Shown here: positions 2,779 to 18,288 of the stretch, one piece after another | Layout: each line of letters starts with the position of its first letter | Numbering within the stretch: position 1 is the stretch's first letter | Source of the DNA: Acidobacteriota bacterium | GTDB taxonomy: Bacteria; Acidobacteriota; CAIWXX01 | Direction: 5' to 3' | Length of the DNA: 37,026 nt | Assembly: GCA_016191015.1 (NCBI GenBank) | Contig: JACPPM010000160.1 | Span: 1 to 37,026 of the forward strand | The notes under the pieces: generated by a model | Database searches by the model: none | Seen by the model: the letters and a program-made list of their open reading frames with translations, nothing else | What the model was told of the DNA's origin: nothing | Program-made: the position numbers and the translations under genes

Positions 2779-2858
2779 TCGTCATCCTGAGGAGCCGGGC
2801 GGAGCCCGGTGACGAAGGATCTCCAGCACGCGCCCGGGGTCATGGAGGAGATCCTTCG
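2779..2858. repeat. REP-like hairpin repeat (CATCCTGAGG...GAAGGATCTCC family)
   Basis: Contains GTCATCCTGAGGAG, a GCCGGGCGGAGCCCGG hairpin core and CGAAGGATCTCC (2813-2824). A perfect inverted copy of the last element, GGAGATCCTTCG, lies at 2847-2858, so 12-base arms flank a 22-base loop. A second member of the family is at 14498-14543, inside the start of purM. This copy lies between purN and tyrS and could act as a transcript-processing or attenuating hairpin, but it lacks a T-tract. Confidence 0.75.
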
Positions 2859-13468: not shown

Positions 13469-14557
13469 TCAGTCGACCAGGGTGACTCTCCGTGAGCCTC
13501 GGACGACCCGGCCTATTTCGTAGCAGTCTGCCTTCTTGGCGCGGAGGTAAGTCACAACGGCATTCACGTCATGCCGGCCGACTGCGAACACCATGCCGAT
13601 GCCCATGTTGAACGTGCGGTAGAGCTCGGCTTCCTCCAGGTGCGCCGCCTTCCTCATCACGTCGAAGACCGGCAGGACGGGGAACGAACGACGCCGGATC
13701 TGCACTTCGCAACCCGCAGGCAGGATGCGCGGGATGTTCTCGAGGAAGCCGCCGCCGGTGATGTGGGCCATCCCGTGGAGCAGCCGGCGTTCGATCAGCG
13801 GCTTCAGGAGCGGATGATAGGCCCGGTGCACGGCCATCAAGGCCTCGGCAACCGTGCACCCAAGCTCGTCCATGTAGCTCTCCGGGCGCTTCTTCAATAC
13901 CTCGAAGAAAATCTTGCGGGCCAGGGTGTAGCCGTTGGTGTGGAGACCGGTTGAAGGCAGACCGATAAGCTGGTCCCCTGCGCGAATGCGGCGGCCGTCG
14001 ACAAGCTGCGCGCGGTCCACCATTCCCACGATCGTGCCGGCAAGATCGTATTCGCCCACAGGGTAGAACTCGGGCATTTCCGCCGTTTCCCCGCCGATCA
14101 GCGCCGTACCGGTCTCGCGACATGCCACGGCCATCCCGGCCACGACCTGCTCGACCACGCCCGGATCCAGCTTTCCCGTCGCGAAGTAGTCGAGGAAGAA
14201 AAGCGGGCGCGCTCCCTGCACCAGAATGTCATTGACGCAGTGATTGACGATGTCCTGCCCCACCGTGTTGTGTATGCCGGTCATGAAGGCGAGCTTGAGC
14301 TTCGTCCCGACCCCGTCGCAACTGCTCACCAGAACAGGCGGGCGACGGGTCGAGGGCATCCGGTAGAGGCCGCCGAAAAGGCCCAAATCGGCGAGCACAT
14401 TCGAATTGAAAGTCGAACGCGCGTGCGCCTTGATCCGCCGGACCGCCTCATTGCCCTTCTCGATATCAACGCCCGCGGAGGCATAACTGACGCTCGAGGA
14501 GATCCTTCGTCGGCCGCCCGAAGCGGCCTCCTCAGGATGACAGTCCCGGCTGGTCAT
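13469..14557 (-). CDS. purM: Phosphoribosylformylglycinamidine cyclo-ligase (PurM), repeat-derived N-terminus
   Basis: Makes AIR from FGAM with ATP, the fifth step of purine synthesis. Family motifs are SYASAGVDIEKGNEAV, DGVGTKLKLA, GGETAEMP, STGLHTNGYTLARK and ITGGGFLENIPR. Homology begins only at SYASAGVDI, near residue 24. The residues before it (CHPEEAASGGRRRIS) are encoded by a REP-like repeat at 14498-14543. There is no ATG, GTG or TTG between the repeat and the conserved part, so translation probably starts at ATG 14557, with a weak CAGGGA site just upstream. It begins seven bases before the purF stop boundary and is the last gene of the operon. The last 14 codons also exist as a copy at 6214-6255. 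Confidence 0.96.
   Translation of the reverse strand: MTSRDCHPEEAASGGRRRISSSVSYASAGVDIEKGNEAVRRIKAHARSTFNSNVLADLGLFGGLYRMPSTRRPPVLVSSCDGVGTKLKLAFMTGIHNTVGQDIVNHCVNDILVQGARPLFFLDYFATGKLDPGVVEQVVAGMAVACRETGTALIGGETAEMPEFYPVGEYDLAGTIVGMVDRAQLVDGRRIRAGDQLIGLPSTGLHTNGYTLARKIFFEVLKKRPESYMDELGCTVAEALMAVHRAYHPLLKPLIERRLLHGMAHITGGGFLENIPRILPAGCEVQIRRRSFPVLPVFDVMRKAAHLEEAELYRTFNMGIGMVFAVGRHDVNAVVTYLRAKKADCYEIGRVVRGSRRVTLVD
14498..14543 (-). repeat. REP-like repeat inside the purM 5' end
   Basis: On the minus strand it reads CTGTCATCCTGAGGAGG, a GCCGCTTCGGGCGGC hairpin core and CGAAGGATCTCC. The two ends match the repeat at 2779-2858, while the hairpin core differs in sequence but keeps its fold. It is translated in frame as part of PurM. 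Confidence 0.75.
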
Positions 14558-14563
14558 TCCCTG

Positions 14564-16027
14564 CTAGTCGCGGCGCACGAGCTCGCCGACAGCCAACGGG
14601 CGCTGGCGGATGTCCTCGATCTCGTCCTCTTTCTGGAAGAGCTTGAGCTGCGCGAGTTGTTCCTGCGGGAACTCGACGGGGTACTTCAGCGTGTAGCAGG
14701 CCGTGCAGTATCTGTCATCGTGGCCCACGGCGCGCATCAGCCCTTCCAGACTCAGATATCCGAGCGAATCGGCGTCAAGAAACCTCCGTATCTCCTCGAC
14801 CGTGTGACTCGACGCAATGAGGTCCTTCGGATACGGAGTATCGATCCCGTAGTAGCACGATCCGATCGTCGGCGGGCAGCTCACCCGAAAGTGAACCTCC
14901 TTCGCCCCCGCCATGCGCACCATCTTGACGATCTTGCGACTGGTGGTGCCGCGGACAATCGAGTCGTCGATGACGATGACACGTTTGCCTTCGAGCAGGC
15001 CGCGGACGGGATTGAGCTTCACGCGCACCCCGAAATTGCGAATCGACTGTTTCGGCTCGATGAACGTCCGGCCGACATAGTGGTTGCGGATCAGCGCGAA
15101 CTCGAAGGGAATGCCGGACTCCTGGGAGAACCCGATCGCAGCGCACACGCCGGAGTCGGGAACGGGCACGACCAGGTCGGCATCGGCCGGGTGTTCGCGG
15201 GCGAGGCCGCGCCCGAGCAGGTTTCGTGTGAGGTTCACACTCCGCCCGTATACCGTGCTATCCGGCCTCGAGAAGTACACATGCTCGAAAATACACTGCG
15301 CAGGTTTCTCCGGTGGAAACGGGGTGAGCGAGCGGATGCCGTCTCGCGAAATCACAACCAGCTCGCCCGGCGCCACGTCGCGGATCCACTCGGCATCCAC
15401 AATGTCGAACGCGCATGTCTCGGATGCCGCCAGCGTGGACTCACCCAACCGGCCGAGCGAGAGCGGGCGGAAGCCGCGCGGGTCCCGCACGGCGTACATC
15501 TTCTCGGGTGTCAGGAACACCAGGGAGAACGCACCCTTCACCTGCATCAACGCCTCGGTCAACGCATCCTCGAAGCTCTCAGCGCGTGATCGGGCGATCA
15601 GGTGGAGGATCACCTCGCTGTCGGATGTCGACTGGAAGATCGCGCCCTCCTTTTCGAGCTGGCTGCGGAGCTGCAATGCGTTGACGAGATTCCCGTTGTG
15701 CACCAGCGCGATCTGCCCTCGATGGCTATCGATCAGGATCGGCTGCGCGTTGAGCAGGTGGCTCTCGCCAGCCGTCGAGTACCGAACGTGGCCCACGGCG
15801 TTGTACCCGCGCATGGTCGACAGGTCCGCCTCGCGGAAGATGTCGGAGACGTGCCCCATCCCCTTCAGCACTTTGATCCGGCCACCGCCGTTCAGATGAG
15901 CGATGCCGGCGCTCTCCTGGCCCCGGTGCTGCAGGGCATAGAGGCCAAGGAAGGCGACGCGAGCCGCCTCGGCGTGGTCGAACACTCCATAAACGCCACA
16001 CTCATCGTGAAACTTGTCGCTGCGCAT
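14564..16027 (-). CDS. purF: Amidophosphoribosyltransferase (PurF)
   Basis: Commits PRPP and glutamine to purine synthesis by making phosphoribosylamine. The start at 16027 (MRSDKFHDEC) has GGGAG about seven bases upstream; the frame is open to 16078 but overlaps the end of purL. The catalytic Cys is residue 10, so a nine-residue propeptide must be removed, as in the Bacillus type. Other motifs are LQHRGQESAGI, VRYSTAG, the PRPP loop VIVIDDSIVRGTTSRK, and the likely iron-sulfur cysteines in CIFEHVYF, RVSCPP and YCTAC. The enzyme should thus be the 4Fe-4S, oxygen-sensitive form, inhibited by AMP/GMP in the family. It lies between purL and purM. Confidence 0.97.
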   Translation of the reverse strand: MRSDKFHDECGVYGVFDHAEAARVAFLGLYALQHRGQESAGIAHLNGGGRIKVLKGMGHVSDIFREADLSTMRGYNAVGHVRYSTAGESHLLNAQPILIDSHRGQIALVHNGNLVNALQLRSQLEKEGAIFQSTSDSEVILHLIARSRAESFEDALTEALMQVKGAFSLVFLTPEKMYAVRDPRGFRPLSLGRLGESTLAASETCAFDIVDAEWIRDVAPGELVVISRDGIRSLTPFPPEKPAQCIFEHVYFSRPDSTVYGRSVNLTRNLLGRGLAREHPADADLVVPVPDSGVCAAIGFSQESGIPFEFALIRNHYVGRTFIEPKQSIRNFGVRVKLNPVRGLLEGKRVIVIDDSIVRGTTSRKIVKMVRMAGAKEVHFRVSCPPTIGSCYYGIDTPYPKDLIASSHTVEEIRRFLDADSLGYLSLEGLMRAVGHDDRYCTACYTLKYPVEFPQEQLAQLKLFQKEDEIEDIRQRPLAVGELVRRD

Positions 16028-16074
16028 GCTGATCTCCCGGGGCGCCGACCGACACGTCGCGTGGTGCCGAACCC

Positions 16075-18288
16075 TCACTGGAGCTGCCTCGCGAACGACC
16101 CCGACCAGGCTTCGAACAGCTCCGCCATCGCGACGTCGACCACCCTGACCCCCCTCCAGGCCAATTGTAGCGCATTTCCCCCAACAATTCCCACTTTTCT
16201 TGCGGGACAGCCCACGCGGGCAGCCAGCGACTCGAAAGCCGCCGCATCACCGGGCGCAACGCTCGCCACGACCCGCGCCCCACCCTCGCCGAAGGCAGCC
16301 AGAGCGAAGTCGCCATTTTCAGAGCCTAACGCATCGAGAGCGACCGATACGCCGTGGAGCCCTCCGGGAGCGAAGCCGGATTCGGCGAGCGCCACGGCCA
16401 AACCTCCGTCGGAGCAATCATGCGCCGAACGCACCAATCCCCGAGCCGCGGCGTCGACGCACAGATCGATCAACGCCTGCTCAGCCTTCAGATCGACCGC
16501 CGCCGGAACCCCCGCCGACAGGCCGTGAACCGTACGGAGGTATTCGCTCGCCCCCAGCGACACCGCCCCGGCGCCGCACACATAGATCACATCCCCCTCG
16601 GCCTTGAACCACTGGTCGACGACCTTGGTGGCATCCTCGAGCAGCCCCAGGACCCCGATCACGGGTGTGGGATGGATTCCCTTCCCGGCCGTCTCGTTAT
16701 AGAAGCTGACGTTACCGCCTGTGATCGGAACCCCGAGCGCCCGGCACGCCTCGGCTATCCCGTCGATCACGTCCGAGAACTGCCCCATGATCTCGGGCTT
16801 CTCCGGGTTGCCGAAATTCAGGCAGTTCGTGGCGGCGATCGGGCGCGCACCCGAGCACGCAACATTGCGCGCCGCCTCGGCAACCGAGGCCATCGCGCCC
16901 GCCATCGGTTGGGCCGCAGTATAGCTGCCGTTGCCATCGACGCTCAGCGCGATCGCCCTTCCCGTCCCCTTCACCCTCAAGACCGTGGCGTCGCTCCCGG
17001 GAAGCACCAGGGTGTTGGTGCGCACCATGTGGTCATACTGCTCGTACACCCACCGTTTGCTCGCGATCGGCGGTGCCGAGAGGAGGGCGATCAGTGCCGC
17101 GCGCGGATCGACGTGCGGGAGCGAGGGCAGAGCGCCGCCGGCGCAGGCGGGCGGGCTGAGTGGCCGCGTGTAACGCGGTGCGTCATCAGTGAGGGTTCTG
17201 TTCGGGATCTCGGCCAGGACCGTCTCCGCGTTCCGAATCCGCAGGACCGGGTCTGCGATAACCGTGCCCACCACAGACGACTCGAGCCCCCACTTCTTGA
17301 AGATCGCTCCGACATCCTGCTCCCGCCCACGCTCGGTCACCAGCAACATGCGCTCCTGTGACTCCGAGAGCATGATCTCGGTCGGAGTCATCCCCTCCTC
17401 GCGCAGCGGGACCAGCTCGATCTGCAGCTCGATCCCGGTTCCGGCGCGAGCGCCCATCTCGCAGGTCGAACAGGTCAGCCCGGCCGCACCCATGTCCTGG
17501 ATGCCCGTGACGAGGCCCTTTTTCATCGCCTCCAGACAGGCTTCCAAAAGCAGCTTCTCCATGAAGGGATCACCGACCTGGACATTCGGCCGCTTCGCCT
17601 GCGCATCCTCGTTGAACTCGGCCGAGGCCATCGTGGCCCCGTGGATGCCGTCGCGCCCCGTGCGCGCGCCCACGTAGATCACGGGATTGCCGATGCCCGA
17701 CGCTTTCCCATAGTGGATGTCCCCGTGGCGCGCGATGCCGACGCAGAGGACATTGACCAGGGGGTTGAACGAATAACAGTCGTCGAACATGATCTCGCCG
17801 CCAGTCGTCGGGATTCCCATGCAGTTGCCGTAGCCGGCGATGCCGGAGACGACTCCTTTGAGGATGCTCCGGTTCTGTGGCTTCTCGAGCGGGCCGAAGC
17901 GGAGGCTGTCCAGAATCGCGATCGGCCGCGCGCCCATCGTAAAGATGTCACGGATGATCCCACCGACACCCGTCGCGGCCCCCTGGTACGGCTCGATGAA
18001 CGAAGGGTGGTTGTGGGATTCGATCTTGAAGACGGCTGCCAGGCCGTCCCCGATGTCCACGATGCCGGCATTTTCTCCCGGCCCCAACAGCACGCGCTCT
18101 CCCCGCGTCGGGAGACGCCGCAGGTGCACCCGGCTGCTCTTGTAGCTGCAGTGCTCGGACCACATCACCGAGTAGATCTGGAGCTCGAGATTGTTCGGCT
18201 CGCGGCGAAGATGGTCGCAGATAGCCTCGTACTCCTCCGTCGTGAGATTCAGGTCCGCCAGGCTTTTCGCCGCGACACCGGGACTCAT
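16075..18288 (-). CDS. purL: Phosphoribosylformylglycinamidine synthase subunit PurL (small type)
   Basis: ATP-dependent synthetase subunit that converts FGAR to FGAM with ammonia delivered by PurQ. The length of 737 residues fits the small PurL that needs PurQ and PurS, both encoded next to it. Motifs include [50 protein letters not shown] and, in the second half, [11 protein letters not shown] and [11 protein letters not shown]. The start ATG at 18288 overlaps the purQ stop by four bases (ATGA), so the two are translated together. It ends 47 bases before the purF start. Confidence 0.97.

Follow-up and report, generated by a model that had tools for sequence, protein, structure and literature searches.

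A dispersed palindromic repeat probably encodes part of the N-terminal tail of PurM in an Acidobacteriota genome

Introduction

When a short palindromic repeat lies at the start of a gene, is it part of the protein? We address this question at purM in a 37,026-nucleotide contig of an Acidobacteriota bacterium (the window), where the reading frame crosses a repeat before it reaches the conserved core of the enzyme. Repeat-coded protein ends have already been described for other repeats in other bacteria, and this genome adds examples. The CGTC-tagged REP superfamily, with the tag variants CGTC and TGTC, is characterized in the passages considered here by stems of 8-9 bp, loops of 4-5 nt and a short unpaired tail that is mostly CCA (Di Nocera et al. 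2013, PMC3733652). According to the same passages, these REPs occur inside genes, N-termini included, and repeat-coded protein ends are described. The passages also warn that N-terminal overlap need not mean translation; for P. putida, C. koseri and S. maltophilia they argue that the majority of such N-terminal REPs stay untranslated. In Rickettsia, the palindromic elements RPE-1, RPE-4 and RPE-6 lie in frame in genes that code for conserved proteins, and proteins with an N-terminal RPE-1 are reported to be expressed (PMC3733652 and PMC10969869, in the parts considered). Judged from sequence, the purM locus is very probably a good example of this known kind: a real repeat that codes for an N-terminal tail of a conserved enzyme with one gene copy.

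Results and Discussion

purM has one canonical start before codon 54, six bases past purF

The features of the purF-purM junction are as follows.

13469..14557, minus strand: purM (phosphoribosylformylglycinamidine cyclo-ligase), 362 aa, stop included; the stop codon ends at 13469
14555..14557, minus strand: ATG of purM, the sole canonical start before codon 54; 6 nt past the purF stop and in the purF frame
14564..16078, minus strand: purF, upstream of purM; GTG 16078 is the start as listed and ATG 16027 is likelier

The purM product matches TIGR00878 (NCBIfam purM) with an E-value of 1.9e-113 and 379 bits against a cut-off of 236.35. Residues 23-353 span profile positions 1-331 of 332, so the match is full-length. 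This is the single purM over that cut-off in the whole genome, a 6.43 Mb assembly in 349 contigs with a listed completeness of 100%. The purF product matches TIGR01134 from residue 27 (522.8 bits), and its gene stops at TAG 14566-14564. Six bases, CAGGGA, separate this stop from ATG 14557. The purine-rich hexamer abuts the ATG directly, closer than the usual spacing of a Shine-Dalgarno sequence.

The N-terminus of PurM reads MTSRDCHPEEAASGGRRRISSSVSYASAGVDI and can be laid out as MTSRD-CHPEEAASGGRRRISS-SVSYASAGVDI. Scanning for start codons, we found no further ATG, GTG or TTG in frame between codon 1 and codon 54. Codon 54 lies past Y25, G29 and V30, three residues that do not vary in an alignment of 47 PurM proteins (47 of the 99 listed references were used). 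An earlier note on this DNA had claimed that no other start precedes the conserved SYASAGVDI, and the scan agrees. The only near-cognate codons in frame before the core are ATC19 and GTC23. The start region (-20 to +40) folds at -15.9 kcal/mol, and a comparison with 19 other gene-like ORFs of the window (-8.5 to -28.6) gave no sign of unusual structural blocking of the purM start; a 121-nt fold has a z-score of -0.66.

The segment in purM belongs to a dispersed repeat family

We counted 93 matches to the pattern TCATCCTGAG-N(3-30)-GAAGGATC in the genome, as against 0 for a reversed control pattern. We modelled the 40-nt form as a 5 bp outer stem and a variable 7 bp inner stem closed by a 3-nt loop. 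The five outer pairs are set by the search pattern and are uninformative on covariation; among 25 distinct 40-nt copies, all 7 inner pairs have changed on both sides, which is covariation. Inner-stem cells are paired in 98.3% of cases versus 83.5% in shuffles, and sliding the partner abolishes the pairing. The purM segment is thus a true dispersed repeat, and on these grounds, copy number and inner-stem covariation, the earlier note was right to place a repeat in the N-terminal region of purM.

An inverted mate lies within 45 bp of 50 of the 93 copies and is absent from the other 43, the purM copy among them. The two letters ahead of TCATCC are CG in 42 copies, TG in 42, GG in 7 and AG in 2 (n=93); the purM copy carries the TGTC tag. 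The three bases directly downstream of GAAGGATC are TCC (62), TCA (20), CCA (4) or others (7), again for n=93. The first two stem pairs are A-U and U-A in 25/25 distinct 40-nt copies, a constancy fixed by the search pattern that is no independent proof. At least one match to the pattern occurs in 11 of 60 relatives, and the sole same-family genome found, G001, has two.

One abundant subtype consists of near-identical paired copies whose flanks are also conserved, on the left over about 25 bases, and lies near several contig ends (for example C112 25-128, C308 65-100 and C339 65-100), as if it had recently spread and were breaking the assembly. The purM copy is among the diverged copies, outside this subtype.

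To delimit the repeat we kept 18 diverse copies of the 50 with the 40-nt form, leaving out the abundant GAGCCGGGC subtype. The left edge is sharp: a G directly precedes TCATCC in 18/18 copies, which in purM is G(-1) at 14541, and columns further upstream are low in information. The right edge, at about 14496, is softer. These edges divide the start of purM into two parts.

14496..14541, minus strand: palindromic repeat copy, 46 nt; core pattern at 14501-14540; codes for about C6-S21 of PurM
14542..14557, minus strand: 16 nt with the ATG and codons 2-5, unshared with other copies (flanks, column information) and probably native

Residues 1-5 and 22 onward therefore lie outside the repeat. The earlier note had the purM frame opening in repeat sequence and some 23 residues derived from it. 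ATG 14557 instead lies 16 nt outside, in DNA that the other copies do not share, and the edges give about 16 residues. Its broader proposal of a PurM tail taken from the repeat survives in part: a repeat-encoded tail is the best reading, and the start codon and first five residues are non-repeat.

The repeat is very probably translated, into a tail that PurM could bear

Because no ATG, GTG or TTG occurs until codon 54 and purM is single-copy, translation should pass through the repeat. Use of ATG 14557, and with it translation of the repeat, is very probable; the exception would be a start at the near-cognate ATC19 or GTC23. A single gene copy, an open frame and the lack of another canonical start make a repeat-encoded N-terminal tail the best reading of the sequence. 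As regards canonical starts, the purM repeat escapes the caveat on N-terminal REPs raised in the passages cited above (PMC3733652).

The roughly 16 repeat-encoded residues very probably sit in a floppy, unstructured tail, as judged from an AlphaFold model of PurM (47 sequences, mean pLDDT 93.2, pTM 0.90). Mean pLDDT is 45 for residues 1-10 and 58 for residues 11-20, all coil; the shallow alignment in the tail also lowers pLDDT, so these values support disorder and are not proof of it. The best PDB relatives align from PurM residue 24, at residues 4-6 of their chains. In 107 of 109 relatives' loci (29 + 80; nearest starts found mechanically, unannotated), the conserved Tyr follows the nearest start at a distance of 2-18 codons, and in the other two at 30 and 59 codons. 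In the window 24 codons separate start and Tyr, or about 8 without the 16 repeat codons, and a lead of about 8 residues is the usual length among the 109 relatives.

Among conserved enzymes, we found purM to be the one clear case in which translation of the N-terminal tail has to pass through the repeat. An inverted pair of the same repeats lies upstream of tyrS (window 2782-2858), and the longest tyrS ORF (ATG 2843) crosses the pair. We did not accept tyrS as a further case of this kind, since its conserved domain begins at residue 56 and codons 25, 39, 52 and 54, all starts, come before it. Because several starts follow before this domain, the repeat need not be translated, and automatic annotation could give TyrS a false repeat-coded N-terminus. 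Likewise rejected was a DUF6677 ORF on contig C312, where starts at codons 58, 74, 76 and 89 follow the repeats and the domain runs from residue 102 of 217. Three ORFs that we named by eye, presumably GWxTD-like, GT-like and YchF-like, were rejected from their reading frames. As with tyrS, the start codon may have been called wrongly for many annotated genes whose N-terminus overlaps a REP, since another start lies downstream. With a single gene copy and no later canonical start before codon 54, the purM locus offers a clean way to test whether cells really make REP-coded N-termini.

How the repeat came to lie in purM

Most likely, the repeat entered purM by inserting in frame shortly after a native start codon. 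A REP-type palindromic element would have inserted at the purF-purM junction, a few codons into purM, and its orientation and phase would have kept the purM frame open. Ribosomes ending purF at TAG 14566-14564 would start purM at ATG 14557, 6 nt on, and read through the repeat, adding about 16 repeat-encoded residues before the SYASAGVDI core as an unstructured tail that the enzyme tolerates. The identity and edges of the repeat, the open frame, the lack of another canonical start and the single purM are observed, and the disorder of the tail is predicted by the model; from these we infer that ATG 14557 is used, that purM is coupled to purF, that an insertion took place and is tolerated, and that ATG 14557 was already the start before it. 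We regard this explanation as a whole as probable. The earlier note held that the enzyme kept its frame by taking residues from the repeat; a tolerated in-frame insertion after an existing start is more likely, and PurM would not have needed the repeat for a start.

An empty pre-insertion site was not seen in any close relative, and no other members of the genus are among the 60 relatives. The fetched purM locus of G001 has no repeat end, and its PurM is 73% identical to that of the window. The distance from purF stop to Tyr codon is about 100 nt in G001 versus 78 nt in the window, and this junction is too diverged to serve as the empty site. A GTG lies 26 codons before the Tyr in G001, whose PurM may itself have a longer lead. 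A search of 396 genomes from the phylum, with a pattern that sees one layout only, found the repeat followed by the purM core in one, the window's own.

The main alternative, which we consider unlikely, is an insertion of the repeat between purF and purM that cost purM its native start, by removal or displacement, and led to recruitment of a chance upstream in-frame ATG. The whole tail would then be new and the repeat still translated, so this account differs from the preferred one in origin only. It would suit an ATG 14557 without a well-spaced Shine-Dalgarno sequence and purF-purM junctions that vary among relatives. The length of the repeat as delimited also speaks for it: 46 nt is not divisible by 3, and to keep the frame an insertion after the native start would have had to come with a few bases duplicated or lost. 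Insertion after the native start nevertheless fits better, because the lead that remains once the 16 repeat codons are taken away, about 8 residues, is usual in relatives.

That the repeat is untranslated, with PurM starting at ATC19 or GTC23, at or past the repeat end, and the repeat serving as an mRNA hairpin, seems to us decidedly unlikely. A GAAGGA inside the repeat lies just upstream of both codons and could favor such a start, but near-cognate starts such as ATC and GTC are rare and weak, and ATG 14557 is only 6 nt past the purF stop. The passages that hold most N-terminal REPs of three species to be untranslated lend it a precedent; their argument rests on shorter homologous proteins, whereas here no canonical start occurs before codon 54 (PMC3733652).

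We see only a slim chance that the in-frame insertion is functional, its hairpin setting how often ribosomes from purF make PurM and its tail fixed in the lineage; the hairpin begins within the coding region, 16 nt past the A of the ATG. A mis-joined junction or misplaced repeat in this draft genome, which is in 349 contigs with several repeat copies near contig ends, is highly improbable, as the purM copy is internal to a 37-kb contig, diverged rather than of the abundant near-identical subtype, and crossed by an intact purF-purM frame.

Relation to known REP systems

Compared with the CGTC REPs as given in the passages considered (PMC3733652), the window repeat likewise is a short palindrome with an unpaired C/TGTC at one end, its stem opens with A-T and T-A pairs, opposite-orientation dimers are frequent, and sites lie close to the 3' ends of genes. 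It differs in having 5 + 7 bp stems instead of 8-9 bp stems with 4-5 nt loops, and Acidobacteriota are not named among the carriers in those passages. The repeat thus resembles CGTC REPs in tag, first pairs and dimers, and its stem and loop lengths keep it from being a settled member. Short 24-nt copies of the repeat may be nearer to CGTC stem and loop lengths.

The Rickettsia RPEs, as far as the cited passages describe them, share with the purM repeat that they are palindromic, in frame and in genes for conserved proteins; they differ in phylum and sequence, and many Rickettsia genes are affected. GTAG REPs, or REPINs, with their RAYTs (PMC3116915 and PMC8049555, in the parts considered) are similar in that short palindromes occur as inverted pairs scattered through a single genome, but they have another terminal tag, and no recognizable two-ended copy of the window repeat lies near any of the five matches to the Y1 transposase PF01797 in the genome (3 over cut-off, 2 under). 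The fetched loci of the three over-cut-off genes (L189, L190 and L191) held no copy ends within one mismatch, and one isolated end motif occurs at each of the two under-cut-off loci.

In our literature searches the repeat peptide HPERSEGS was not found, and the matches listed for the letters of TCATCCTGAG all look unrelated by title. REP combined with Acidobacteria gave, by title, nothing on the window repeat except PMC3733652, and purM with an N-terminal extension gave nothing related.

Repeats also supply the ends of other genes

Proteins can gain new ends from repeats: three more genes of this genome take their stop codons from them. The frame of carB ends inside a repeat copy (L146 1500-1540; contig C101 14503-14542), which supplies about the last 13 residues (about 500-512) and the stop codon; in the near-full matches, alignments to carB homologues of relatives extend no further than query residue 472-497. 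The frame that follows carB is one we take by eye to be QueC-like. In an aldehyde dehydrogenase gene (PF00171; L140, about 1501-1509) and an arginase-family gene (PF00491; L153, about 1524-1532), the last two residues and the TGA come from the first bases of a repeat copy.
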